NCBI RefSeq assembly: GCF_017357385.1
Contig: NZ_CP071634.1
Span: 248,001 to 312,000 of the forward strand
Reading direction: 5' to 3'
Source of the DNA: Rhizobium sp. NZLR1
Lineage (GTDB): Bacteria; Pseudomonadota; Alphaproteobacteria; Rhizobiales; Rhizobiaceae
Length of the DNA: 64,000 bases
The stretch's first letter is position 1. Each line of letters begins with the position of its first letter. The position numbers were made by a program, and so were the translations under genes. Of the stretch, positions 32,407-45,446 are shown in pieces. The notes below the pieces were generated by a model. The model did no database searches, was not told where the DNA came from, and was given only the letters and a program-made list of their open reading frames with translations.

Positions 32407-33336
32407 TCACGCCGCCGTTGCTTGTCGCTTGGCAGCCTTCACATGGGTTGTGCTGCGGCGACCGTCGACGCTGACGGGGACGTCGCCGTCAACAGTGGCG
32501 CGGCGCACCACCCGGTGCTGGTCGCCATAATCGTTGACAGCATAATGCTGGGTGGCGCGATTATCCCAGATCGCGACATCTCCGGCTCTCCAGCGCCAGC
32601 GCACGGTATTTTCCGGCGCGGTGACGTAGGACTGGAAGACCTCGTAGAGTTTGGCGGAATCGGCCTTCGATACGCCGATCAGGCGCTGAACGAAATTCCC
32701 AAGCAGCAGCGATCTTTCGCCGGTTTCCGGATGAACACGCACGACCGGATGCTCGGTCTCGTAGATGGTCGAGGTGAAAATCTCCTCGAAATGCTTCTTC
32801 TCTGCATCCGTGGCGCGAGGGCGCACGGCGGCATAGTCATAGGCATTGCTGTGAATGGCCCATAAATTATCCGCCAGCAATTTGAGCGGCGCCGGCAGAC
32901 TTTCGTATGCCGCATGGGTGTTGGACCAGATCGTGTCACCGCCGGCTGCCGGAATGACGACGCCGCGAAGGACAGAAAATTTGGGGTAGGCGTCGACGAA
33001 GGTAACGTCGGTGTGCCACTGGTCCGCTCTGCCGCCGCCGCGGCTGGAATCGAGGTTGAGGATGGAAGCGGTGCCGGCGACCGGTCCCTGGGTTGGATGC
33101 GGCACGAGGTCGCCCAGGCGGCGTGCGAAGGATTCCTGTTCGGAATCGTCAAGATGTCCCTGGTCGCGGAAGAAGATGACCTTGTGCTTCAGGAGAAGCT
33201 GATTGATGGCCGCCACCGTTGCATCCGAAAGTTCTCCGCCGAGGCGGATACCTTTGATTTCGGCTCCGACACGGCCGGTCAGCGGCACGACATCGGTGTC
33301 GGGAATGATCTGATTGACGAGAACCGGATTGCTCAT
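32407..33336 (-). CDS. TauD/TfdA-family 2-oxoglutarate dioxygenase, AtsK-like
   Basis: The product is 309 residues. The iron facial triad is visible as the HxD in QWHTDVTF and the distal histidine in RATQHYAVNDYG, and the 2-oxoglutarate-binding arginine follows in QHRVVRRATVDGD. The C-terminal stretch RATVDGDVPVSVDG resembles alkylsulfatase AtsK, which releases sulfate from alkyl sulfate esters. Taurine dioxygenase is the alternative. Such genes are induced by sulfur starvation. It is convergent with the cupin gene and divergent from the AhpD-like gene. Confidence 0.85.
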   Translation of the reverse strand: MSNPVLVNQIIPDTDVVPLTGRVGAEIKGIRLGGELSDATVAAINQLLLKHKVIFFRDQGHLDDSEQESFARRLGDLVPHPTQGPVAGTASILNLDSSRGGGRADQWHTDVTFVDAYPKFSVLRGVVIPAAGGDTIWSNTHAAYESLPAPLKLLADNLWAIHSNAYDYAAVRPRATDAEKKHFEEIFTSTIYETEHPVVRVHPETGERSLLLGNFVQRLIGVSKADSAKLYEVFQSYVTAPENTVRWRWRAGDVAIWDNRATQHYAVNDYGDQHRVVRRATVDGDVPVSVDGRRSTTHVKAAKRQATAA

Positions 33337-33653: not shown

Positions 33654-34061
33654 ATGACAACAGTCAAACTCCTGTCGGACCAAGAGGCCGCAGCCATTCC
33701 GGCCGTGCAAGCCGTGTTCGACGACATCCGAGCGACACGCAAGACCGACTTCATCAACAACTTCTGGCGTGCCCTTGCAATCGATCCCGCAAACCTCAAA
33801 CGCGTACGGGAAACGCTCAAATCGGTCATGACGGTCGAGGGCGCGATCGATCCGTTGACGCGCGAGATGATCTACATAGCGGTGTCAACAGCCAATGCTT
33901 GCCAGTACTGCGTTCAATCCCATACCGCTGCCGCCCGTGCGCGGGGAATGACCGATGCCCAACACGGCGAACTCCTGACGATCATCGGACTTGCCGGCCA
34001 GACAAACCATCTCGCTCTCGCCATGCAGGTTCCGCCCGATCCGGAATTTGAGGTGCGATAG
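33654..34061 (+). CDS. AhpD/carboxymuconolactone decarboxylase-family protein
   Basis: The product is 135 residues with the AhpD-like core: E71 followed by ANACQYCVQSHTAAA, giving the redox pair C83-x-x-C86 and H90. Such proteins are peroxidatic or peroxiredoxin-partner enzymes. GERGAFSERRE-type N-terminal extras are absent. It precedes the LysR-linked cluster but does not carry the shared upstream element described for those genes, so it is probably controlled separately. The start follows GAGAGGAA. Confidence 0.85.
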   Translation: MTTVKLLSDQEAAAIPAVQAVFDDIRATRKTDFINNFWRALAIDPANLKRVRETLKSVMTVEGAIDPLTREMIYIAVSTANACQYCVQSHTAAARARGMTDAQHGELLTIIGLAGQTNHLALAMQVPPDPEFEVR

Positions 34062-34381
34062 AAACAAGGGACTTGGCGCTGGCATCACATGCGCAGCTGC
34101 CGCCATCTGCAATCTCCACCTCCAGATACGGGAGTGATATAATGCAACGTTAAATTGGCCGTTGGCTCTGGGAACCAGACACCCGCCTTCTGCTAAATAC
34201 CCTCCAAGGATCCTTTCCTCGGCGCCTTGCGGGCCGCGAGGGATGCTGCAGGCATCTCAAAGAGATCGTTCTTCGTCCTGATGAAACGTCCGGATATGAA
34301 CGCCGCCTTGCTCGATTTCGGGGGCGGCTTCAAGATCGGACCTTCACTTCTGCGAAGGCGCGTCTCATTATTGCAGACCCG
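34062..34381. other. Intergenic stretch, no supported gene
   Basis: No plus-strand gene is supported here. On the minus strand one frame from about 34395 to 34185 reads smoothly (CRVCNNETRLRR, then KPPPKSSKAAF), with a C-x2-C pair, but it has no start codon after its upstream stop. It may be a fragment of a small protein gene. I do not recognise a family. Confidence 0.35.
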
Positions 34382-34437
34382 GCAATAAAATAGAAACTAT
34401 TCACGCAATTGTGGGTGTGAGGATCTGACGGCAATAT
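34382..34437 (+). promoter_or_regulatory. Shared LysR-type operator/promoter, copy upstream of the alpha/beta hydrolase
   Basis: Half-site GCAAT at 34382 and GCAATT at 34405 are 23 bases apart. Between them the positions AAT, GAAAC and ATT match the copy at 42453. The second half-site runs into TTGTGG (-35, 34409-34414), and CAATAT (34432-34437) lies 17 bases further as -10. The same geometry recurs at 37180, 39154, 42453 and 44657. Transcription would start near 34444. Confidence 0.75.
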
Positions 34438-34520
34438 CCATCCGTCAGACGAACACAGCGTCGCCTGAAGTTTTCAATGATGAAATCGCAAGACGCGAGA
34501 TGGCTCAGAACCTTTCTTCC

Positions 34521-34644
34521 ATGAACACGCAGGGGCGTACTACTCTCCGCAGGCGCCGCCGCAGCGGCCATGGCAATTTCACCCTCTCTCAGCTTCGCAG
34601 CCAATGCTGCTCCCGCCACCAACCCAATCGAAGGAACCAAGACA
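34521..34644 (+). pseudogene. Out-of-frame Tat signal peptide of the alpha/beta hydrolase
   Basis: In the hydrolase frame, codons from 34525 read TRRGVLLSAGAAAAAMAIS and then SLSFAANAAPATNP, a typical twin-arginine signal with a hydrophobic stretch and AxA cleavage site. The frame is closed immediately upstream by TGA at 34522-34524, while the natural-looking start ATG at 34521 (MNT...) is in another frame. A two-base loss in a CGCGC run, or one extra base, would explain it. The signal is therefore disconnected unless the sequence has an error or a frameshift occurs. Confidence 0.6.
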
Positions 34645-35481
34645 ATGGCATATATAACCACCAACGACGGCGTTGAGATCTTTTACAAGGACTGGGGTCC
34701 GAAGGATGCGCAGCCGATCGTCTTCCATCACGGCTGGCCGCTGTCATCGGACGACTGGGACGCCCAGATGCTTTTCTTCCTTTCGAAGGGATACCGCGTC
34801 GTCGCCCATGACCGCCGCGGTCACGGTCGCTCCGCCCAGGTTGCCGACGGACACGATATGGACCATTACGCCGCCGATGCCTTCGCCGTCGCAGAAGCGC
34901 TCGACCTGAAGAATGCCGTGCATATCGGCCACTCGACGGGCGGCGGCGAGGTTGCCCGCTATGTCGCCAAGCACGGCCAGCCCGCCGGCCGCGTCGCCAA
35001 GGCGGTTCTCGTCTCGGCTGTGCCGCCGCTGATGCTGAAGACCGAGAACAACCCGGAAGGCCTGCCGATCGAAGTCTTCGATGGTTTCCGTTCGGCGCTC
35101 GCGACGAACCGCGCCCAGTTCTTCCGCGACGTTCCGGCCGGTCCGTTCTACGGCTTCAATCGTGATAGCGCGACAGTTCAGGAAGGTGTGATCCAGAACT
35201 GGTGGCGGCAGGGAATGATGGGCGGAGCCAAGGCCCACTACGACGGCATCAAGGCCTTCTCCGAAACGGACCAAACGGAAGACCTGAAGGCGATCACGGT
35301 TCCGACGCTCGTACTGCACGGCGAAGATGACCAGATCGTTCCGATCGCGGATTCGGCCCTGAAGTCGGCAAAGCTGTTGAAGAATGGTTCACTCAAGACC
35401 TATCCCGGCTTCTCGCACGGCATGCTGACCGTCAATGCCGATGTCCTGAACGCCGATCTTCTGGCCTTCGTGCAGTCCTAA
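34645..35481 (+). CDS. Alpha/beta hydrolase (non-haem chloroperoxidase/arylesterase type)
   Basis: The product from the ATG at 34645 is 278 residues. It is an alpha/beta hydrolase of the cofactor-free haloperoxidase group: FHHGWPLSSDDW (oxyanion hole), nucleophile S97 in HIGHSTGGGE, the acid in VLHGEDDQIVP and histidine in YPGFSHGM. AAGGA at 34631-34635 gives a usable ribosome binding site for this start. An in-frame ATG at 34570 lies inside the relic Tat signal. As it stands the protein should be cytoplasmic, whereas the intact ancestor was probably exported. Substrates of this group include esters, lactones and peracids. Confidence 0.85.
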   Translation: MAYITTNDGVEIFYKDWGPKDAQPIVFHHGWPLSSDDWDAQMLFFLSKGYRVVAHDRRGHGRSAQVADGHDMDHYAADAFAVAEALDLKNAVHIGHSTGGGEVARYVAKHGQPAGRVAKAVLVSAVPPLMLKTENNPEGLPIEVFDGFRSALATNRAQFFRDVPAGPFYGFNRDSATVQEGVIQNWWRQGMMGGAKAHYDGIKAFSETDQTEDLKAITVPTLVLHGEDDQIVPIADSALKSAKLLKNGSLKTYPGFSHGMLTVNADVLNADLLAFVQS

Positions 35482-35490
35482 ACAAGACCC

Positions 35491-35532
35491 GGAGCCGCGA
35501 TGTGAAAGCAATCGCGGCTCCGATCTTTTATT
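35491..35532 (+). terminator. Intrinsic terminator after the alpha/beta hydrolase
   Basis: GGAGCCGCGAT (35491-35501) and ATCGCGGCTCC (35511-35521) form a perfect 11-bp stem with a nine-base loop, followed by GATCTTTTATT. It lies ten bases after the hydrolase stop codon. Confidence 0.88.
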
Positions 35533-35561
35533 GAACACAGCACGAAATTCGGAACGGGACC

Positions 35562-36242
35562 ATGATGCTGTTGACCCCAGAGCTTGTTGCCCTGACGTTG
35601 CGAGACGTCCTGGACGATGGCCCAGAACCGGGCTGGACACCACTCTCCGAGGCGGAACTTGACTGTCTCGTCGACAGGATTGAACGAGAGGCAGGTGGCG
35701 AACCGATTTGGGTCTTCGCTTACGGGTCCCTTATCTGGAACCCTGAGTTCGAGCCGGCAGCCCGAATGCCAGCATTCGCATATGGATGGCATCGATCGTT
35801 TTCGCTGAGGATCGAACGTTGGCGGGCAACCAGCGAACAACCAGGTCTGATGATGGTTCTCGAACGCGGCGGGCGTTGTGATGGTGTGGTACTCCGTTTA
35901 TCCGAAGAGCGTCGCCGCCAGGATCTCGGTGCGCTCGTGGCGCGCGAAATCAAGTACCACGAAGTCGCCGCCATGGTCCGGTGGGTTCGCGTGCAGACGC
36001 CTGAAGGCATGAAGAACGCCCTGACCTTCTGGGCAAGTACCAGACGATCCGGCCTCACCAAGCCATTGCCGAGGCAGACCACCGCGGAGCTAATCGCAAA
36101 CGCCTGCGGGCAGGGCGGATCGTGCGCGCAATATCTGCACAACACGATCGTTGATCTTGAGGCCGAGGGGATCCGAGACCGAAATCTCTGGCATCTGCAG
36201 GCGCTCGTGGCCGAGCAGATCAAGGCAAAGCAAGCAGCCTGA
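35562..36242 (+). CDS. chaC: ChaC-like gamma-glutamylcyclotransferase
   Basis: The product is 226 residues. The nucleotide-free substrate loop WVFAYGSLIWNPEF near residue 47 is the hallmark of gamma-glutamylcyclotransferases, and the following WHRSFSLR and CDGVVLRL match the ChaC branch. ChaC cleaves glutathione to 5-oxoproline and Cys-Gly. It follows the terminator of the hydrolase and lacks the shared upstream element, so it is probably independent of the cluster's LysR. It is convergent with the LysR gene. Confidence 0.85.
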   Translation: MMLLTPELVALTLRDVLDDGPEPGWTPLSEAELDCLVDRIEREAGGEPIWVFAYGSLIWNPEFEPAARMPAFAYGWHRSFSLRIERWRATSEQPGLMMVLERGGRCDGVVLRLSEERRRQDLGALVAREIKYHEVAAMVRWVRVQTPEGMKNALTFWASTRRSGLTKPLPRQTTAELIANACGQGGSCAQYLHNTIVDLEAEGIRDRNLWHLQALVAEQIKAKQAA

Positions 36243-36261
36243 TCGTCGTCCTAACTGAACG

Positions 36262-37161
36262 TCAATCCAGCATGACCATGTGCGCCGGGACTTGCTCTTC
36301 GAAGAACTTCGAGAAGGATGCGATCCGGGGCGGCAGGGCCTGATATGGCGGGTAGTAGAGCGTCAACCACAGGTCGGGCGGAGCCCATCCCTTGAAGACA
36401 TGGACAAGACGACCGCTGCGGATGTGGTCGGCAATATTGAACCCCGGTAGCATGGCAACGCCCACACCGTCGGCGGCCATGTCCGCCAGAACCTCGCCAC
36501 TGTTGGCGCTGAAGGCCCGACCTGCCGAAATCGTCATGCTGGATCCACCATCCGATAGCACCCAGTTCTCGCGCCGGCTCTCACCGCTATAGGCGAGACA
36601 GTCGTCAGGTGTCAGTTCGTTCGGGTGCTGCATTTCGGCGAACCGACTCCCGGGCGCCGCGATGAGTATCCGAGGAACGGCACGGATCTTGCGCCAGATC
36701 GTGAACTTGTCCGATGGTTGGGATGAGATGCGGATCGCCAGGTCGTAGTCGTCATCGACAATGTTCACCAATCCATCGGACAGCGAGATCTCGAAGCTCA
36801 TCTTTGGATATCGTTCCTTGAATCCTGAAAGGATCGGCGGCAGCACTGCCTTTCCGAACCATGTCGGCGCGCTGATCCGGAGCCGCCCTTCGTCAGCCTT
36901 GTGAGTGTTCATCACCTCGCGCCGTGCGTCTTCGAGCGTCTTCACCGCAGGCTGGATCTGCGCGGCAAAGATCGCGCCATCGGTCGTGAGGGAAACCTGC
37001 CTCGTAGTGCGCACAAAGAGCTGAACGCCGAGTTCTGCCTCGAGCGCGGCGATGGCACGCGTGACGGCTGCGGGTGTCATGTCCAGTTCGCGGGCTACCT
37101 GGGCGAAATTCCGCTTCTCGGCGGCGAGGAGGAAGGTTCGGAGAGCTTTGTAATCGTTCAT
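36262..37161 (-). CDS. LysR-family regulator, candidate controller of the 34-45 kb cluster
   Basis: The product is 299 residues. The helix-turn-helix (AAEKRNFAQVARELDM, TPAAVTRAIAALEAELG) occupies about 12-48, followed by the effector domain (GRLRISAPTWFGKAVLPPIL onward). It resembles the CrgA/PA2206-like branch of LysR regulators that respond to toxic or oxidised compounds. The gene is divergent from the VOC dioxygenase-like gene with a shared 117-base region that contains one copy of the cluster's repeated element, 18 bases before its own start codon. Autoregulation and control of the other copies are inferences. Confidence 0.88.
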   Translation of the reverse strand: MNDYKALRTFLLAAEKRNFAQVARELDMTPAAVTRAIAALEAELGVQLFVRTTRQVSLTTDGAIFAAQIQPAVKTLEDARREVMNTHKADEGRLRISAPTWFGKAVLPPILSGFKERYPKMSFEISLSDGLVNIVDDDYDLAIRISSQPSDKFTIWRKIRAVPRILIAAPGSRFAEMQHPNELTPDDCLAYSGESRRENWVLSDGGSSMTISAGRAFSANSGEVLADMAADGVGVAMLPGFNIADHIRSGRLVHVFKGWAPPDLWLTLYYPPYQALPPRIASFSKFFEEQVPAHMVMLD

Positions 37162-37179
37162 ATCATTGTTTCAAAAATT

Positions 37180-37235
37180 GCAATTCAATCACAAGGAATA
37201 TTGCAATTCTCGGCGGCGATCAACCGGCCTACATT
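37180..37235 (+). promoter_or_regulatory. Shared LysR-type operator/promoter, VOC-LysR intergenic copy
   Basis: TTGCAATTC occurs at 37178-37186 and again at 37201-37209, exactly 23 bases apart. ATT and AAT between them are 11 bases apart, a classic LysR T-N11-A box. TTCTCG (37207-37212) and TACATT (37230-37235) form -35 and -10 with a 17-base spacer. This copy sits between the LysR gene and the VOC gene, the expected primary site. Confidence 0.8.
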
Positions 37236-37278
37236 CATATCAACACACGAACATCAACGCCCATTGAAAGGCATCGAC

Positions 37279-38211
37279 ATGATCAAGGATATCAAGGGAC
37301 TGCATCACGTGACCTCGATGGCATCGGATGCGCGGCAGAACAACCGCTTCTTCACCGACACGTTGGGCCTGCGCCGCGTCAAGCAGACAGTCAACTTTGA
37401 CGACCCAAGCGTCTATCATCTGTATTACGGCGACGAGAACGGCTCAGCCGGGACGGTCATGACCTACTTCCCGTTCCAGAACATGATGCTGGGGCGTCCA
37501 GGCGTGGGCGAGGTCGGTGAAACGCAGTTCTCCGTGCCGAAGGGTTCGCTGAAGTTCTGGCAGGATCGCTTCACCGCTCAAGGTGTCGACGGGCTGGAAA
37601 CGGACACCGTCTTTGGTGCCAACCGTCTTCGTTTCATGGGACCGGATGGCGACAGCCTTGCGCTTATCGAGTCCGCCGACGATACCCGCGCCCCATGGCT
37701 GGGCGACGGTATCCCTAGCGATGCTGCCATCCGCGGTTTCGCCGGCGCTCGCTTCAGCCTGCACGATATCGCAGCGACTGAAGAACTGCTCGGCTTCATG
37801 GGCTACCAACGCGCCGAAAAGGAGGGCGATGTGACTCGCTTCATCATTCCAAACGGAAACGGAGCGGACACGATCGATCTTGCAGCACTGCCGAAGACGC
37901 CTTTTGCCCGTCAGGGTGCGGGTTCGGTCCACCATATCGCGTTTGCGGTCGACAACCGCGAGAAGCAGCTTGAGGTGCGCAAGGCGCTGATGGATACCGG
38001 ATATCAGGTCACGCCCGTCATCGACCGCGACTATTTCTGGGCGATCTACTTCCGCACGCCGGGTGGCGTTCTGTTCGAGGTTGCCACGAACGAGCCGGGC
38101 TTCAACCGAGACGAGGACACCGCGCATCTCGGCGAAGCACTCAAGCTCCCGAGCCGATACGAGGAATTCCGGGATGAGATCCAGGCCAACCTCGTGCCGC
38201 TGGCGGCCTGA
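37279..38211 (+). CDS. VOC-family ring-cleaving dioxygenase-like protein
   Basis: The product is 310 residues with two VOC domains. The first begins IKGLHHVTSMASDARQNNRFF, the second (near residue 205) SVHHIAFAVDNREKQ, and LFEVATNEPGF supplies the C-terminal glutamate ligand. This is the MhqO/YkcA-type family, annotated as ring-cleaving dioxygenases and linked to hydroquinone, quinone and catechol stress. The start ATG at 37279 is preceded by GAAAGGC. A near-perfect stem follows its stop. It carries the shared LysR element in its promoter. Confidence 0.88.
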   Translation: MIKDIKGLHHVTSMASDARQNNRFFTDTLGLRRVKQTVNFDDPSVYHLYYGDENGSAGTVMTYFPFQNMMLGRPGVGEVGETQFSVPKGSLKFWQDRFTAQGVDGLETDTVFGANRLRFMGPDGDSLALIESADDTRAPWLGDGIPSDAAIRGFAGARFSLHDIAATEELLGFMGYQRAEKEGDVTRFIIPNGNGADTIDLAALPKTPFARQGAGSVHHIAFAVDNREKQLEVRKALMDTGYQVTPVIDRDYFWAIYFRTPGGVLFEVATNEPGFNRDEDTAHLGEALKLPSRYEEFRDEIQANLVPLAA

Positions 38212-38244
38212 TGCCCAGCATTGATCGTCATGTGACGAAGAACT

Positions 38245-38280
38245 TGAAGCGTCGCGGATCCCTGAATCGCGGCGCTTCAG
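38245..38280 (+). terminator. Hairpin after the VOC gene, possible terminator
   Basis: GAAGCGTCGCG (38246-38256) pairs with CGCGGCGCTTC (38269-38279) with one G-T pair around a short loop. No T-run follows, so it may be a processing or stability structure rather than a strong terminator. Confidence 0.5.
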
Positions 38281-38905
38281 TGCGTCCTGCGCGAACGCCC
38301 GCAGCGATGAGCTATGTGGGCGTTGAGGGCGAGGGCGATATGCGCGACGAGAGAGCGGTCCGCGCCATCCTGACCGATCAGGGGCAGGAGGGCAGCGCCG
38401 ATATCCCGCACCGTAGGATCATCCATGCCGCGACAGACAGCCAGATCATTCAGCCCTCACCTGTCTGATCCGCGAGTTCGGTCAGATGCTTCCGCGGGAG
38501 ATGTATGACGAATGCTTCGAACTTTCCGCGGACGGCGATTGCCGCGCCCTGCGCAGACTTATGAGACAGACGGATCCTTTGGGATAAGATCTTCGGAGGA
38601 GAGGGCGGTCTGTTCTGCCATATGTCGGAATGCTCGACTCGATCAGATGGAGCACGATGAGAAACGCGTCGTCGGCCGGATATGACCACGGCAGGATCCC
38701 GCTCGGTGTAACCTCTGGCGACATAGGCCATTGTCATCTCGGCTTCCCGAAGAGGCCTCGTCACGAGAGTGCGTGCACTGCCCGCCTGGACCCATTCGCC
38801 CATATTGTTGGCGACCGCCGATGCTCCCTCACAATGAACTCTTATGAAGAGGGCGTGGAGGTCGAACAGACTTCCCGAGCCGCTGGTTTGCAAATTTCCG
38901 CTCAA
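38281..38905 (-). pseudogene. Degraded AraC-family regulator
   Basis: Minus-strand segments in two or more frames add up to the N-terminal part of an AraC-type regulator. They read ADDAFLIVLHL, then PKGSVCLISLRR, then FEAFVIHLPRKHLTELADQTG, then (after a frame change near 38450) MDDPTVRDIGAALLPLIG and LVAHIALALNAHIAH. The order and spacing match AraC regulators with a cupin-like sensor domain. The DNA-binding domain is missing, as if cut at the end of the VOC gene. It cannot make a functional regulator. Confidence 0.65.
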
Positions 38906-39153
38906 TCCACCGTTGTGGCGCGTCGGGTCATATTAGGATAGTTTCTCGCGCGAAGTTCGCCGCAGGTCTTGTCGAATAGTCAGATCCATGGAACGAAAGA
39001 CAGGCAAATCTGGCCGCGCGCGCTGGAGCGGCCCAGGCGTTTCGGCGCCAGATTCCAGGCGTGGTTCCGACTCCCCTGATCGGGCGAGCGGCGGGCGCTT
39101 CCCCACTACGGAACGGCGGAAGCTGAGGCTTGATGTCCATTGTTGCGAAATGT
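38906..39153. other. Intergenic stretch, no supported gene
   Basis: No open frame on either strand has a recognisable domain or a credible start. It probably continues the decayed region around the AraC remnant. Confidence 0.4.
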
Positions 39154-39209
39154 GTAATTCATTCGCAAGTAATATTGCAATTCCGTGTCGAGAGCCGACG
39201 CAATAGATT
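39154..39209 (+). promoter_or_regulatory. Shared LysR-type operator/promoter, isochorismatase operon copy
   Basis: GTAATTC (39154) and GCAATTC (39177) are 23 bases apart, with ATTCGCAAG and AATATT in between, matching the 37180 copy. TTCCGT (39181-39186) and TAGATT (39204-39209) give -35 and -10 with a 17-base spacer. It lies 154 bases before the isochorismatase start, leaving a fairly long leader. Confidence 0.7.
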
Positions 39210-39362
39210 TCTATTCAGCAGCCAAGACAACGAGTGAGCGGCTCTCAAAGGGAACCCGCAACACTCCAAGGATTGCAGAACGAGCGTCGTGCCGCGGCAT
39301 CCGATGCTGCTGCCCATTCTGACACCGCACAGGCGGTCCAAACAACCGAAGAGGAATTGACT

Positions 39363-40052
39363 ATGTCCAAGCTCGAAGTCCTGACCCCGGCAAACAGCCA
39401 GCTCATCTTCATCGACCAGCAGCCGCAGATGGCGTTCGGTGTGCAGTCGATTGATCGCCAGACACTGAAGAACAATGTCGTCGGCCTTGCCAAGGCCGCC
39501 AAGATCTTCAACGTCCCCACCACGATCACCACGGTCGAAACCGAATCCTTCTCGGGCAATACTTTTCCGGAACTGCTCGCCGTCTACCCGGAGAACGATA
39601 TTCTCGAGCGGACCTCTATGAACTCCTGGGACGACCAGAACGTCCGTGACGCGCTGGCGAAGAATGCCGCCAACGCACGCAAGAAGATCGTCGTCTCGGG
39701 GCTCTGGACGGAAGTCTGCAACACGACCTTCGCACTCTCCGCCCTCCACGACGTTCCGGAATACGAGATCTACATGGTCGCCGACGCTTCGGGCGGGACT
39801 TCGTCCGACGCACACAAATACGCGATGGATCGCATGGTGCAGGCAGGCGTGATCCCGGTCACCTGGCAGCAGGTTCTGCTCGAGTGGCAGCGCGACTGGG
39901 CCCGCAAGGAGACCTACGACGCGGTCACCACGCTTGTGAAGGAACACTCCGGCGCCTATGGCATGGGCATCGACTATGCCTACACCCACGTCCACAAGGC
40001 CGCCGAACGCGTCGCCCACGGCAAGCGCATCGGCCCGAACCCCGCCAAGTAA
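39363..40052 (+). CDS. Isochorismatase-like hydrolase (YcaC type)
   Basis: The product is 229 residues of the cysteine-hydrolase (isochorismatase-like) fold. The candidate triad is D18 in LIFIDQQPQ, R83 in LERTSMNSWDD and C119 in SGLWTEVCNTTFALSA, as in YcaC-type members. MVADASGGTSSDAH is the usual oxyanion region. The start ATG at 39363 follows GAGGAATT. It is followed 65 bases later by the XapX gene and the amidohydrolase. YcaC-like proteins often appear in stress-induced LysR clusters, but their substrates are not well known. Confidence 0.88.
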   Translation: MSKLEVLTPANSQLIFIDQQPQMAFGVQSIDRQTLKNNVVGLAKAAKIFNVPTTITTVETESFSGNTFPELLAVYPENDILERTSMNSWDDQNVRDALAKNAANARKKIVVSGLWTEVCNTTFALSALHDVPEYEIYMVADASGGTSSDAHKYAMDRMVQAGVIPVTWQQVLLEWQRDWARKETYDAVTTLVKEHSGAYGMGIDYAYTHVHKAAERVAHGKRIGPNPAK

Positions 40053-40117
40053 GGCCTGCTCGGCCCGCTCCGATAACCCCGTCGGGGCGGTCTTTCCGTC
40101 ATTCTGGAGGACATCCC

Positions 40118-40405
40118 ATGAAAATCTATCTCCTGTCGCTCGGTGCAGGCCTGCTTGTCGGCATCGTCTACAGCCTGCTCAACGTCCGCTCACCCGCACC
40201 GCCGGTCATCGCTCTAGTCGGCCTTCTCGGAATTCTTGTCGGCGAACAGATCATACCGCTCGCAAAGACCTTGTGGAGCAAGGAGCCGGTAGCCGTCTCA
40301 TGGCTTCATCAGATCAAGCCGCACATGTTCGGTCACCTACCCAAGGGCGGCGATCGTATCGACGTTGCTCATCGCGCAGACGGCCAAGTAGAGGAGCGGA
40401 GCTGA
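40118..40405 (+). CDS. XapX-domain small membrane protein
   Basis: The product is 95 residues with two membrane helices: YLLSLGAGLLVGIVYSLL, then VRSPAPPVIALVGLLGILVGEQ, the XapX (DUF1427) pattern. The C-terminal tail (KPHMFGHLPKGGD onward) is hydrophilic. Function is unknown. It starts after CTGGAGG. Its stop shares one base with the start of the following amidohydrolase gene, so the two are probably cotranslated. Confidence 0.85.
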   Translation: MKIYLLSLGAGLLVGIVYSLLNVRSPAPPVIALVGLLGILVGEQIIPLAKTLWSKEPVAVSWLHQIKPHMFGHLPKGGDRIDVAHRADGQVEERS

Positions 40406-42387
40406 TGACGACGCGGCGAACCTTCCTTGGAGGAGCATCAAGCCTGGCGTTTTCGAACCTCTTCTCACCGGCGAAAGCCGCCGATCTCAACCAGACCCGA
40501 GTAGACACCATGCATCCCGACCTGATCCTTCACAACGGCCGCATCACCACACTTGACCGGACCAATCCGAACGCGACGGCGATCGCCATCAAGGACGGGC
40601 TGTTCTTGGAGGTCGGATCCGACAGCGAGATCATGGTGTTGGCTGGCCCCGACACCAGGATCGTCGACCTCAAGGGCAAGCGCGTCCTGCCGGGCCTGAT
40701 TGACAACCATACCCACGTTATTCGCGGTGGCCTGAACTACAACATGGAACTGCGCTGGGACGGCGTGCGCTCGCTCGCAGATGCCATGGACATGCTGAAG
40801 CGCCAGGTGGCGATCACGCCCGCGCCGCAATGGGTGCGCGTTGTCGGCGGGTTCACCGAACATCAGTTCGCCGAAAAGCGTCTGCCGACGATCGAGGAGA
40901 TCAATGCGATCGCTCCCGATACCCCGGTCTTCCTGTTGCATCTATACGATCGGGCACTCCTGAATGGCGCGGCCCTGCGCGCCGTCGGCTACACCCGCGA
41001 TACGCCGAACCCGCCGGGTGGTGAAATCACCCGTGATGCCAATGGCAATCCGACTGGCATGCTGCTGGCCAAGCCGAATGCAGGCATTCTCTACTCGACG
41101 CTCGCCAAGGGGCCGAAGCTTCCTCTGGACTATCAGGTAAACTCGACCCGCCACTTTATGCGCGAACTGAACCGCCTTGGCGTGACCGGAGTGATCGACG
41201 CGGGCGGCGGCTTCCAGAACTATCCGGACGATTACGAGGTCATCCAGAAGCTGTCGGACGAGAACCAGATGACGGTTCGTCTGGCCTACAATCTCTTCAC
41301 GCAGAAACCGAAGGAAGAAAAGCAGGATTTTCTGAACTGGACGCAGTCGGTCAAATACAAGCAGGGCAACGACTATTTCCGTCACAACGGTGCCGGCGAA
41401 ATGCTTGTCTTCTCCGCCGCCGATTTCGAGGATTTTCGACAGCCACGTCCTGAAATGGCTCCGGAGATGGAAGGCGAGCTGGAAGTGGTGGTCCGGGTTC
41501 TTGCCGAAAACCGTTGGCCGTGGCGCATGCACGCCACCTATGACGAGACCATCTCCCGCTCGCTCGACGTGTTCGAGAAGGTCAACAGGGACATCCCGCT
41601 CAAAGGCCTCAACTGGTTCTTCGATCACGCGGAGACCATATCGGAACGGTCGATCGACCGCATTGCGGCACTTGGCGGCGGCATCGCCACTCAGCATCGC
41701 ATGGCCTATCAGGGCGAATATTTCGTCGAGCGCTACGGCCATGGCGTGGCGGAAGCCACGCCGCCGATCAAGCGCATGCTCGACAAGGGCGTGAATGTCT
41801 CGGCAGGTACGGATGCCACCCGTGTCGCCTCCTACAATCCGTGGGTCTCGCTCTCGTGGATGGTGACCGGCAAGACAGTTGGCGGAATGCAACTCTACCC
41901 GCGTGCCAACTGCCTTGATCGCGAGACGGCGCTTCGCATGTGGACCGAAATGGTCACCTGGTTCTCGAACGAAGAGGGCAAGAAGGGCCGTATCGAAAAG
42001 GGCCAGTTCGCTGATCTGGTCGTGCCGGACAAGGACTTCTTCTCCTGCGCCGAGGACGAAATCTCGTTCCTCGTTTCGGAGCTGACCATGGTCGGTGGCA
42101 AGATCGTCTACGGCGCGGGCGACTTCAAGACGCTCGACGAGAACGACATCCCGCCCGCGATGCCCGACTGGTCTCCTGTCCGCAAATTCGGCGGCTATGC
42201 CGCCTGGGGCGAGCCGGAAGGTGCCGGTGCCCGTTCGTTACGCCGCACGGCAATCTCCACATGCGGATGTGCCAGCGATTGCGGCGTGCATGGGCATGAT
42301 CATGCCGGTGCTTGGACGTCCAAACTTCCGATCGCCGACCTCAAGGGATTCTTCGGCGCTCTCGGCTGCTCCTGCTGGGCAGTCTGA
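40405..42387 (+). CDS. Tat-exported amidohydrolase (YtcJ-like) with cysteine-rich tail
   Basis: The product is 660 residues. A Tat signal (TTRRTFLGGASSLAFS, AKA cleavage near residue 27) precedes an amidohydrolase family 3 domain. Metal ligands are the HTH in LIDNHTHVIRGG, histidines in WRMHATYDE and WFFDHAETI, and the aspartate in SAGTDATRV. The tail has an unusual Cys/His cluster (CGCASDCGVHGHDH, then GCSCWAV at the end). It should act in the periplasm on amide, urea or related substrates. The start overlaps the XapX stop (TGATG). Confidence 0.88.
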   Translation: MTTRRTFLGGASSLAFSNLFSPAKAADLNQTRVDTMHPDLILHNGRITTLDRTNPNATAIAIKDGLFLEVGSDSEIMVLAGPDTRIVDLKGKRVLPGLIDNHTHVIRGGLNYNMELRWDGVRSLADAMDMLKRQVAITPAPQWVRVVGGFTEHQFAEKRLPTIEEINAIAPDTPVFLLHLYDRALLNGAALRAVGYTRDTPNPPGGEITRDANGNPTGMLLAKPNAGILYSTLAKGPKLPLDYQVNSTRHFMRELNRLGVTGVIDAGGGFQNYPDDYEVIQKLSDENQMTVRLAYNLFTQKPKEEKQDFLNWTQSVKYKQGNDYFRHNGAGEMLVFSAADFEDFRQPRPEMAPEMEGELEVVVRVLAENRWPWRMHATYDETISRSLDVFEKVNRDIPLKGLNWFFDHAETISERSIDRIAALGGGIATQHRMAYQGEYFVERYGHGVAEATPPIKRMLDKGVNVSAGTDATRVASYNPWVSLSWMVTGKTVGGMQLYPRANCLDRETALRMWTEMVTWFSNEEGKKGRIEKGQFADLVVPDKDFFSCAEDEISFLVSELTMVGGKIVYGAGDFKTLDENDIPPAMPDWSPVRKFGGYAAWGEPEGAGARSLRRTAISTCGCASDCGVHGHDHAGAWTSKLPIADLKGFFGALGCSCWAV

Positions 42388-42452
42388 TCTCGGCTTCACG
42401 CTTGGGCGGCCACGCCGCCGCCCGAGCAATCCATTTCATAATTTCAAAAATC

Positions 42453-42508
42453 GCAATTGAATCGAAACGATTGCTGCAATTGTTGGCAGGGCGGTAACCA
42501 GCCAATAT
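42453..42508 (+). promoter_or_regulatory. Shared LysR-type operator/promoter, DoxX-MFS copy
   Basis: GCAATTG at 42453 and 42476 are 23 bases apart, with the palindrome AATCG-AAA-CGATT between them. TTGTTG (42480-42485) and CAATAT (42503-42508) form -35 and -10 with 17 bases between. It lies 54 bases upstream of the DoxX start codon. Confidence 0.78.
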
Positions 42509-42562
42509 CGCTCCATCAAACGCAGCCGCTCGTTCAGACCGGCGAACCTGCAGGGAGCAGAT

Positions 42563-43006
42563 ATGACCAACCAATCACATATGTCGAATCCAGTTCGGAG
42601 CAGTCTGGCCCGCGTCGTCGGCTCTCCTGTCACGCGAACGGTGTCGCTGCTGGCGCTCTGCGCCGCCTATATCCAGGGACCGCTCACCAAGATCTTCGAT
42701 TTCAACGGCGCATTGGCCGAGATGGATCATTTCGACCTCCATCCAGCGGCCTTCTTCGCAGTCGCCGTCATCGTCTTCGAACTCACGGCTTCCGCCATGG
42801 TGGTCTCGGGCTTCCTGCGCTGGACAGGCGCCCTGGCGCTGGCTGGCTTCACGCTTCTCGCGACCTTCATCGCGCTCCGCTTCTGGGAAATGGCCCCGGG
42901 CATGGACCGTATGATGGCGGCCAACGCCTTCTTCGAGCACCTGGGCCTCGCAGGCGCATTCGTCTTCGTTGCAGCATTTGACCTCACCAAGGGAGCAGGC
43001 AAATGA
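42563..43006 (+). CDS. DoxX-family membrane protein
   Basis: The product is 147 residues with four membrane segments. YIQGPLTKIFDFNGALAEMDHF is the N-terminal DoxX motif, followed by AVAVIVFELTASAMVVSGF and FIALRFWEMAPGMDRM. DoxX proteins are linked to redox and thiol-oxidative stress in several bacteria. Its stop overlaps the MFS start by four bases (ATGA). An ATG at 42581 is an alternative start. Confidence 0.85.
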   Translation: MTNQSHMSNPVRSSLARVVGSPVTRTVSLLALCAAYIQGPLTKIFDFNGALAEMDHFDLHPAAFFAVAVIVFELTASAMVVSGFLRWTGALALAGFTLLATFIALRFWEMAPGMDRMMAANAFFEHLGLAGAFVFVAAFDLTKGAGK

Positions 43007-44601
43007 GTGCCGCAAAATCATCCGGGGGAACCTTCGGGCCCCTCGCACAGCCAGTCTTCGCTGTTCTGTGGATCGCCACCGTCGTTGGCAACACCGGAAG
43101 TTTCATGCGCGACGTCGCCAGCTCCTGGCTGATGACGGATCTGTCCGCATCGCCCGCCGCAGTCGCCATGGTTCAGGCGGCCGGAACCCTGCCGATCTTC
43201 CTGCTTGCCATCCCGGCAGGCGTTCTCACCGACATCCTCGATCGCCGCAAGTTCCTGATCGCTGTCCAGCTCCTGCTGGCATCCGTCAGTATATCCCTGG
43301 TGGTTCTGTCCCAGACAGGCATGCTTTCGGTCAGCGCGCTGATCGGCCTGACCTTCCTCGGCGGCATTGGCGCCGCGTTGATGGGGCCGACCTGGCAGGC
43401 GATCGTTCCGGAACTGGTGAAGCGCGAGGACGTGAAGAGCGCGGTGGCGCTCAACTCGCTCGGCATCAATATCGCCCGCTCCATCGGGCCTGCTGCGGGC
43501 GGCCTGCTTCTCGCAGCCTTTGGAGCCGGGATCACCTATGGCGCGGATGTCGCAAGCTACATCGTGGTGATCGCAGCTCTGGTCTGGTGGCCACGGGCGA
43601 AGGATGCAAACGACGCGCTTCAGGAGAACTTCTTCGGTGCCTTCCGCGCCGGACTTCGCTACACCCGCTCCAGCAGACCGATGCATGTCGTCCTCCTGCG
43701 GGCCGCCATCTTCTTCGCCTTCGCCAGCGCCGTCTGGGCGCTCCTCCCGCTCGTCGCCCGGCAACTGCTCGGTGGGGATGCCAGCTTCTACGGCATCCTG
43801 CTTGGTGCGGTCGGAGCTGGTGCGATCGGTGGAGCCTTGGTCATGCCGAGGCTGCGCGAACGCCTGAGCTCGGACGGTCTGCTTCTTGGCGCAGCACTGA
43901 TCACCGCAGTCGTCTTGGGTGTCCTGTCGCTTGCCCCGCCGAAGATCGTCGCCATCATCGTTCTTATGTTCCTCGGGGGCGCATGGATCACCGCCCTGAC
44001 CACGCTCAACGGCGCAGCGCAGGCTGTTCTACCCAACTGGGTGCGCGGTCGTGGTCTTGCCGTCTACCTGACCGTATTCAATGGTGCGATGACTGCCGGA
44101 AGCCTCGGCTGGGGTGCTGTCGGCGAAGCTGTTGGCATCCAGTCTACCTTGCTCATTGGAGCGGCTGGTCTTCTCGTTGCCGGTTTCATCATGCATCGCG
44201 TGAAGCTTCCTGCAGGCGATGCCGACATGGTGCCGTCCAACCACTGGCCCGAACCGCTTGTCGCCGAGCCGATCGCCCATGACCGTGGTCCGGTTCTGAT
44301 CCTGATCGAGTACAAGGTCGAGAAGCAGCACCGCAGTGCGTTCCTGCACGCAATCGATTATCTGTCCAAGGAGCGTCGCCGCGATGGAGCATATGGCTGG
44401 GGCGTTACCGAAGACTCGGCTGACCCGGAGAAGATCGTCGAGTGGTTCATGGTGGAATCCTGGGCCGAACACCTTCGCCAGCACCGGCGGGTTTCCAATG
44501 CAGACGCCGACCTTCAGGGCAAAGTTCTGACCTACCACGTCGGCCCGGAGAAGCCCGTCGTCCGTCACTTCTTGACCATCAATCGGCCTGATGCCGCATA
44601 A
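43003..44601 (+). CDS. MFS exporter (EntS-like) with C-terminal stress-antibiotic-type domain
   Basis: The product is 532 residues. Twelve membrane helices occupy roughly 20-410, with the MFS_3 pattern FAVLWIATVVGNTGSFMRDV at the start and TDILDRRKFLIAVQ in the first loop. From about 425 there is a soluble tail (RGPVLILIEYKVEKQHRSAFL to DLQGKVLTYHVG) resembling a dimeric alpha-beta barrel, present in many MFS_3 members. It probably exports small toxic compounds. It is cotranslated with DoxX and followed by a strong terminator. Confidence 0.87.
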   Translation: MSAAKSSGGTFGPLAQPVFAVLWIATVVGNTGSFMRDVASSWLMTDLSASPAAVAMVQAAGTLPIFLLAIPAGVLTDILDRRKFLIAVQLLLASVSISLVVLSQTGMLSVSALIGLTFLGGIGAALMGPTWQAIVPELVKREDVKSAVALNSLGINIARSIGPAAGGLLLAAFGAGITYGADVASYIVVIAALVWWPRAKDANDALQENFFGAFRAGLRYTRSSRPMHVVLLRAAIFFAFASAVWALLPLVARQLLGGDASFYGILLGAVGAGAIGGALVMPRLRERLSSDGLLLGAALITAVVLGVLSLAPPKIVAIIVLMFLGGAWITALTTLNGAAQAVLPNWVRGRGLAVYLTVFNGAMTAGSLGWGAVGEAVGIQSTLLIGAAGLLVAGFIMHRVKLPAGDADMVPSNHWPEPLVAEPIAHDRGPVLILIEYKVEKQHRSAFLHAIDYLSKERRRDGAYGWGVTEDSADPEKIVEWFMVESWAEHLRQHRRVSNADADLQGKVLTYHVGPEKPVVRHFLTINRPDAA

Positions 44602-44610
44602 CGAAAACGC

Positions 44611-44641
44611 AAAGGGCAGGGCGGCTTCGGCCGCCCTTTCC
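44611..44641 (+). terminator. Intrinsic terminator after the MFS gene
   Basis: GGGCGGC (44619-44625) and GCCGCCC (44630-44636) enclose a TTCG tetraloop, followed by TTTCC. AAAGGG upstream extends the pairing with the T-rich end. It is located ten bases after the MFS stop and just before the next shared promoter element. Confidence 0.85.
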
Positions 44642-44656
44642 ATTATGTCGCCTGGC

Positions 44657-44712
44657 GCAATGAATTCGAAACAATTGATGCAATTGCGAGAGCCGACGAT
44701 CAGCGGCAAAAC
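44657..44712 (+). promoter_or_regulatory. Shared LysR-type operator/promoter, YoaK/DUF1275 copy
   Basis: GCAATG at 44657 and GCAATTG at 44680 are 23 bases apart, with TTCGAAAC and AATT in between as in the 42453 copy. TTGCGA (44684-44689) would be -35 and CAAAAC (44707-44712) a weak -10 at the same spacing. It lies 56 bases before the YoaK-like start. Confidence 0.65.
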
Positions 44713-44768: not shown

Positions 44769-45446
44769 ATGAAACTTCCTTCCCTTCCCACACTCCTGAG
44801 CTTTAATGGCGGCTATGTCGACACACTCGGCTTCCTGTCGCTTTCCGGGCTGTTCACCGCCCATGTCACTGGAAACTTCGTGACGCTAGGTGCCACGTTG
44901 GCGCACGGTCTGGACGGAGCATTGTCAAAACTCCTGGCACTACCGATGTTTTGTCTGGTCGTTTTTGTATCACGTCTGGTCTGCCTGAAACTTCAAAGTC
45001 GGGATCGCTCACCCATCCGGCCAATGCTTGTCGTCAAGCTGCTGCTGTTTGTGGGAGTTGCTGCCTACGCACTCTTTCATGGCCCGTTTCGGGCTGAAGA
45101 AGGGGCCGTCACACTGGCGGTCGGCATGGCCCTGGTTTCGGCGATGGCTATTCAGAATGGGCTTCACAAGGCGCATCTGTCGAAAGCGCCGCCTTCCACG
45201 CTGATGACCGGCACGACCACGCAGATCATGCTCGATCTCGCGGACATTCTGGCCGATCCGAAAGCCGACGAAGTCGTGACAGCGAAAGCACGGGTTAAAA
45301 AGATGGCAGCAGCCGTCGCGACCTTCGCCCTCGGCTGCGGTGTCGGCGCTGTCGGTTACATGTACGCTCCCGCAGCGGCGTTCAGCCTGCCTGCGGTAAT
45401 TGCCACGGTCGCGCTCTTTGCAAGCAGCGCAGGTGCCGAGTCCTGA
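44769..45446 (+). CDS. YoaK/DUF1275-family membrane protein
   Basis: The product is 225 residues with about six membrane segments. FNGGYVDTLGFLSLSGLFTAHVTGNFV is the family signature (GGYVD..G..F.AHVTGN), and MAIQNGLHKAHLSKAPPSTLMTGTTTQ is the second conserved block. Function is unknown. Codon use in this gene looks somewhat less GC-biased than its neighbours. It carries the shared LysR element and appears to be the last member of the cluster; transposon debris follows. Confidence 0.88.
   Translation: MKLPSLPTLLSFNGGYVDTLGFLSLSGLFTAHVTGNFVTLGATLAHGLDGALSKLLALPMFCLVVFVSRLVCLKLQSRDRSPIRPMLVVKLLLFVGVAAYALFHGPFRAEEGAVTLAVGMALVSAMAIQNGLHKAHLSKAPPSTLMTGTTTQIMLDLADILADPKADEVVTAKARVKKMAAAVATFALGCGVGAVGYMYAPAAAFSLPAVIATVALFASSAGAES

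Follow-up and report, generated by a model that had tools for sequence, protein, structure and literature searches.

Five promoters in a Rhizobium gene cluster share a 44-base element that is predicted to be the operator of a linked LysR-type regulator

A stretch of 64,000 nucleotides from Rhizobium sp. NZLR1 (positions 248,001 to 312,000 of the forward strand of contig NZ_CP071634.1, assembly GCF_017357385.1; the window hereafter) contains five copies of a 44-base element, each located upstream of a different transcription unit. The five copies are very probably operator-promoter elements of a single LysR-type regulator encoded among them (36262..37161, minus strand), which would activate all five units. 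All copies are on the plus strand, before the genes for an alpha/beta hydrolase (34367..34410), a ring-cleaving dioxygenase (37165..37208), an isochorismatase-family hydrolase (39139..39182), a DoxX-family membrane protein (42438..42481) and a DUF1275 membrane protein (44642..44685, the weakest of the five). The regulator belongs to the LysR family by its domain architecture, with an N-terminal HTH_1 domain and a C-terminal LysR_substrate domain, both of which score above the Pfam cut-off.

An earlier sequence-only reading of this DNA described the copies as pairs of GCAATT-type half-sites exactly 23 bases apart, at 34382/34405, 37180/37203, 39154/39177, 42453/42476 and 44657/44680, and all five pairs, with their spacing, are found at these positions. 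The second half-site is exactly GCAATT in all five copies, but the first is exact in only two, the others being GCAATA, GTAATT and GCAATG. An alignment of 233 sites scoring at least 20 bits (232 distinct, including the five window copies), anchored on the first GCAATT, delimits the element from -15 to +28 relative to this half-site, with a sharp onset of conservation at -15 and a decay after about +31. In order, it comprises ATNRTTNC, seven weakly conserved positions, the first GCAATT, the internal part A-T-(CGAAA)-A-T and TGCAATT; the earlier description included the part from position 0 onward but missed the left arm, ATNRTTNC, 15 bases upstream. The upstream half of the element has the form of a LysR box, an imperfect dyad whose center is -4 and in which T occupies -10 and A occupies +2. 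The T-N11-A signature is present in 219 of the 233 sites and in four of the window copies; the perfect dyad, ATTGC-N7-GCAAT, is found in 56 of the 233 sites and, among the window copies, only in that of the hydrolase gene.

The second GCAATT, at +23 to +28, extends into the -35 position, with TT at +27/+28 in 98% of the 233 sites. The -10 hexamer follows 17 bases further on and spans +50 to +55; its second base (+51) is A in 98% of the sites and its last (+55) is T in 76%. In the window the hexamer is CAATAT (34432-34437), TACATT (37230-37235), TAGATT (39204-39209), CAATAT (42503-42508) and CAAAAC (44707-44712), in the order of the copies. Assuming that transcription starts about 7 bases past the -10 hexamer, the center of the box would be near -66 and the second half-site would span about -39 to -34. 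Sites at about -66 and next to -35 are those usually occupied by LysR activators.

When a 40-column matrix built from four window copies is used to score the fifth, the held-out copy receives 26.3-39.5 bits, and the best other position in the window, on either strand, 11.0-15.7 bits; the reversed control run alongside yields three matches of 14-16 bits and none higher. A search of the 64 kb for the half-site pair, with at most one mismatch per half-site, returns six matches on the plus strand, namely the five copies and a further match built on the second half-site of the isochorismatase copy, and three on the minus strand, of which two overlap these elements and one (6270) does not. In the whole source genome (6.856 Mb, six contigs), an 18-position pattern with up to three mismatches finds the five window copies and one site on contig C6, which was discounted, being internal to a long open reading frame (ORF) that, by eye, resembles an oxidoreductase of the flavin adenine dinucleotide (FAD) type. 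The 44-base pattern, derived from the window sites and related ones, finds the five window copies only, with no matches in the reverse or control searches, so that the genome does not hold the many equally good matches that would speak against a regulatory element.

The element is also conserved at orthologous promoters. The region is present in relatives from Rhizobium, Sinorhizobium/Ensifer, Neorhizobium and Agrobacterium, and 80 loci with an ortholog of the LysR protein (82-96% identity), the best 80 of 128 relatives, were scanned with a matrix made from the five window copies only, at a cut-off of at least 16 bits. The element precedes the dioxygenase gene in all 67 loci that hold this gene (75-98 bases from the element center), the DoxX gene in 50 of 54 (80-101 bases), the hydrolase gene in 48 of 51 (85-248 bases) and the DUF1275 gene in 9 of 11 (93-187 bases). 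The genes that are internal to the window units lack it almost completely: own copies were detected in 0 of 63 loci for XapX, 0 of 58 for the amidohydrolase, 1 of 52 for the major facilitator superfamily (MFS) transporter (L060, a locus without a detected DoxX gene) and 1 of 21 for ChaC. The element is kept before the first genes of units and is lacking inside operons. For the isochorismatase gene, the fraction is 38 of 66, and gene order accounts for this number: among the loci with both genes, the isochorismatase gene has no element of its own in any of the 28 cases where it abuts the dioxygenase gene (gap of less than 250 bases), and has one in all 31 cases where the two are separated. Three genes in the opposite orientation (L059, L062) were excluded from this comparison; the element is present there too. 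A refined matrix gives similar counts (DoxX, 49/52; hydrolase, 49/51; DUF1275, 9/11) and, over the 1.59 Mb scanned, 229 sites of at least 25 bits compared to none in the reversed sequence; this matrix was trained on sites from the same 80 loci, so its scores are not independent.

The lysR gene is divergent from the dioxygenase gene, and its start codon almost touches the operator: the edge of the element is 3 or 4 bases from the start codon in 71 of 73 loci (3 bases in the window), so binding at this site should affect lysR itself. A Shine-Dalgarno-like four-mer precedes lysR in 2 of the 73 loci, and none is found before the window gene (37159-37208), a start-codon layout suggesting that the lysR message may be leaderless. 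Among 86 orthologs, one residue is kept in at least 90% of the sequences at each of columns 13-41 of the LysR protein, a range that includes the presumed recognition helix.

In terms of the RBS/ABS (recognition and activation binding site) model of LysR activators (PMC11739112), a LysR tetramer would have one dimer on the upstream box (ATTGC-N7-GCAAT type), about -66, while its second dimer, with inducer, would come to occupy the GCAATT half-site, about -39 to -34, beside RNA polymerase. The units activated in this manner would be hydrolase(-ChaC), dioxygenase, isochorismatase-XapX-amidohydrolase, DoxX-MFS and DUF1275, and LysR bound to the operator on the dioxygenase side would, in addition, restrain lysR, that is, autoregulate. 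The earlier proposal that one LysR protein drives all five units is supported by the conservation described above and by the co-occurrence described below, from which we infer binding and activation. That the protein binds the five elements chiefly as a repressor that is relieved by the inducer is unlikely, although repressors are known among LysR proteins and the -35 position is overlapped by the operator, which also abuts lysR. Against such a role, the predicted location of the box, about -66, is where activating members of the family usually bind, the second site ends at -35, and the -35 hexamers are of the poor kind seen in promoters that depend on an activator.

Co-occurrence links the element to the LysR ortholog. 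In a genus sample of 120 genomes (ortholog cut-off, E up to 1e-120; presence lists compared by eye), the element is found in 54 of 54 genomes with the ortholog and in 1 of 66 without it; in a family sample of 121 genomes (orthologs defined at 82% identity or more), the respective numbers are 6 of 6 and 1 of 115. Fisher tests give 1e-33 for the genus and 2e-9 for the family, values that are only indicative, since the genomes share ancestry and the pattern was defined in part with sites from the same genomes. The single family genome that has the element without the ortholog (G071) encodes a LysR homolog of 46% identity and carries the element before an isochorismatase gene, the protein product of which is 89% identical to that of the window. 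A binder encoded elsewhere, either an unlinked LysR paralog or another factor, with the linked LysR a mere neighbor of one target, is improbable to a still greater degree than repression. The genome does encode other LysR proteins (85 matches to this one at E up to 0.001) and, in some relatives, the region contains a second LysR or AraC gene. However, all the paralogs in the genome are at or below 34% identity, the co-occurrence (54/54 compared to 1/66) is with the linked ortholog, the box is of the LysR type, and a related element is found in the lysR-dioxygenase gap of distant homologs. Furthermore, LysR is the only DNA-binding family recognized, by eye, among the ORF clusters common to at least 12 of the 80 loci (queries from 11 loci).

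The regulon was initially described as local, and the five units are indeed clustered, but it is not strictly local, since related genomes have the element before the same genes at unlinked places, on other contigs. Genomes contain up to seven copies. Among the matches listed, 21 unlinked copies (on another contig, or 45 kb or more away from the LysR gene) were picked by eye for inspection; 17 of these precede the same genes as in the cluster, namely 10 before hydrolase, 4 before DUF1275, 2 before isochorismatase (one being that of G071) and 1 before DoxX. The other four are located before a gene for a DUF1622 membrane protein (L118, 7511), in an unclear setting 330 bases upstream of a long ORF (L160), at a contig end (L116) and in the genus genome that has the element without the ortholog (G764; locus L175).

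Several observations weigh against the assignment of these elements to the linked regulator or against the details of the proposed promoter. The remaining cluster genes track the element about as closely as lysR, which means that this pattern by itself cannot single out the binding protein. Some relatives have a second LysR or an AraC gene in the region (L157; H2, H6, H8). The copy in G764 is an orphan with three mismatches and without any ORF of at least 90 amino acids starting within 450 bases downstream. In the DUF1275 copy of the window, G replaces the T of T-N11-A, and the -35 hexamer is conserved in its TT only; of the hexamers and the 17-base spacer proposed initially, the TT and the -10 hexamer hold but the rest of the -35 hexamer does not. 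In the 80 loci, 18 matches of at least 16 bits are not assigned to a gene of the cluster: six score 16-21 bits, five are in a lysR gap without a detected dioxygenase gene (L013, L014, L027, L076, L079), two precede a further gene (L066, L076) and five are others; one reverse match, of 17 bits, is assigned to lysR (L025). Finally, the pattern and the matrices are partly derived from the genomes used for testing them.

In L066 (8762; = L172, 3046) and in L076 (8457; = L173, 7370), an element close to lysR lies before a gene whose product is probably exported. The product of one such gene was scanned and gave only a sub-threshold glyoxalase-type match; this gene is a possible candidate for an extra member of the regulon.

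That the copies arose as matches by chance, or represent a dispersed DNA repeat devoid of a regulatory role, as their likeness and their presence in several copies per genome could suggest, was rejected and is next to inconceivable given the leave-one-out scores, the 57-82% pairwise identity of the window copies inside the element as opposed to 20-38% in the upstream flank, the location before the first genes of units with the -10 hexamer at one distance, and the reversed control (0 compared to 229).

Several known systems resemble the one described here. The nod box, the 47 bp multi-copy element of rhizobia bound by the LysR-type NodD (PMC5596368), is nearly equal in length and also precedes several operons, but its palindrome, ATC-N9-GAT, and its target genes differ from those found here. 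YhaJ of Escherichia coli is a LysR-type regulator that responds to hydroquinone as the inducer and acts on several scattered promoters through one shared box (PMC5031710); like the regulator described here, it is divergent from one target and has enzymes of aromatic rings among its targets, but its box is TCA-N7-TGA and its targets (yqjF, yhaK, ybiJ, ygiD, yhhW, yceP) are unlike the genes of this cluster. The multi-copy LysR-type nod boxes of rhizobia and the hydroquinone response of YhaJ made it conceivable that the elements are sites of one of these named regulators; both were rejected, with ATC-N9-GAT present in 18 of the 233 sites and in none of the window copies and TCA-N7-TGA in none of the 233 sites, leaving this identification with hardly any credibility. 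MhqR of Bacillus subtilis and Staphylococcus aureus (PMC6798810) likewise uses one type of operator before several units that include ring-cleavage dioxygenases and hydrolases. It is, however, a MarR-type repressor that binds a 9-9 bp inverted repeat at the start site, whereas the regulator here is of the LysR type, and the element, with a different sequence, is located upstream of and up to -35. PnpM/PnpR (PMC5603801) and PcpR (PMC4264193), LysR-type regulators of genes for hydroquinone or chlorophenol pathways, are similar in regulator type, and the dioxygenase here is PcpA-like; none of the 48 PDB sequences that match the LysR regulator bears the name PcpR. A literature search confined to open-licence papers found no published regulon with this gene set, which does not establish its absence from print.

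The dioxygenase (37279..38211, plus strand) is a VOC-family protein of the MhqO/PcpA type. It matches, over the whole length, MhqO of B. subtilis (PDB 3oaj, 242 bits) and PcpA, 2,6-dichloro-p-hydroquinone 1,2-dioxygenase (PDB 4huz, 145 bits), and the alignments, read by eye, place its His, His and Glu at the metal ligands, those of 3oaj being named in PMC12673573. Cleavage of hydroquinone-type rings is the predicted activity. The same source reports, for the lignin-degrading Agrobacterium sp. B1, a 17-fold increase of one mhqO gene (1652) on soda lignin; this gene, and mhqO of the likewise lignin-degrading Paenibacillus sp. B2, are similar to the dioxygenase here in type, and the passages covered name no LysR regulator. 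Because the most constant target is this dioxygenase, the inducer is somewhat more apt to be a hydroquinone- or quinone-like compound or a lignin-derived phenolic than another signal, and the role of the regulon is perhaps the breakdown of toxic quinone-like plant compounds. On the opposite side, DoxX, XapX, DUF1275 and the amidohydrolase do not on their own indicate quinones.

LysR homologs of 39-52% identity, identified in 20 loci, point to a simpler arrangement. In 18 of these loci lysR is divergent from a dioxygenase gene; L131 and L151 have no dioxygenase match, and in L151 lysR is divergent from an isochorismatase gene. A matrix for the dialect of these distant elements, built from 10 of the 20 lysR gaps (reversed control, up to 10.3 bits), detects matches in the other ten gaps at 25-37 bits in L126, L148, L154 and L159 and at 13 bits in L151, L155 and L156, and finds no gap match in L134, L152 and L153. 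Matches of at least 10 bits are almost solely in the lysR-side gap, except for a 10.6-bit pair in L153, although such a narrow matrix could miss weaker copies elsewhere. The dialect pattern matches in nine of 16 genomes with distant homologs and in none of the other seven; eight of the nine have one copy beside lysR, and G071 has two, in the lysR gap and at the isochorismatase promoter. This distribution, taken as presence and absence without a tree, suggests an ancestor with a single operator and a later gain of additional copies within the Rhizobium group. The ancestral state would be one operator between lysR and the gene for the ring-cleaving dioxygenase, persisting in the more distant relatives; in the Rhizobium group, as many as four more units would have acquired the 44 bp element, as would genes at other places in some genomes. 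That the system is the LysR equivalent of the quinone response under MhqR, and that it grew by operator capture, recruiting independent genes promoter by promoter, is marginally less likely than not, and we advance this scenario tentatively.

The other annotated genes of the cluster are on the plus strand; domains were assigned with Pfam and structural matches come from PDB sequences. The hydrolase (34570..35481, start at 34570 or 34645; Abhydrolase_1) is of the non-heme chloroperoxidase/esterase type, with matches of about 450 bits to PDB 1zoi and 1a88. In the window (34500-34645), the frame upstream of 34570 resembles a twin-arginine leader (TRRGVLLSAG...), with an in-frame stop just upstream and no start codon between; in several relatives (e.g., L163, L164, L166 and L168), the leader and the hydrolase are in one open frame. 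The next gene encodes a ChaC-like protein (35562..36242; Pfam ChaC) and, judging from the spacing, is possibly co-transcribed with the hydrolase gene. The stretch 38211-39139, which separates the dioxygenase gene from the isochorismatase element, contains two ORFs without a Pfam match; in the related locus L157, a second LysR-like gene matches in this stretch at 25% identity. The isochorismatase-family hydrolase (39363..40052; Pfam Isochorismatase) is YcaC-like, with a match to PDB 1yac, and is followed by the XapX/DUF1427 membrane protein (40118..40405) and the amidohydrolase (40405..42387; Amidohydro_3). DoxX (42563..43006; Pfam DoxX) is followed by the MFS transporter (43003..44601; MFS_3), and the last unit is the DUF1275 membrane protein (44769..45446; Pfam DUF1275). 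The upstream neighbors of the cluster encode a TauD-family dioxygenase (32407-33336) and a carboxymuconolactone-decarboxylase-family protein (33654-34061); half-site and matrix scans of the window detect no copy of the element before either gene.

The proposed regulon is well delimited. With its element and boundaries, the distant dialect and natural gene rearrangements, it is a ready system for the study of how LysR regulons grow promoter by promoter, the most telling rearrangement being that of the isochorismatase gene, which has its own copy only after leaving the dioxygenase operon. PLSDB contains 298 records with some match to the region, including six in which the match spans at least 80% of the region, and, among the matches listed, the annotated genes in these plasmid records carry generic names. 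If the inducer is a quinone or a lignin phenolic, the analysis would also identify a switch that occurs widely on plasmids of rhizobia and agrobacteria.

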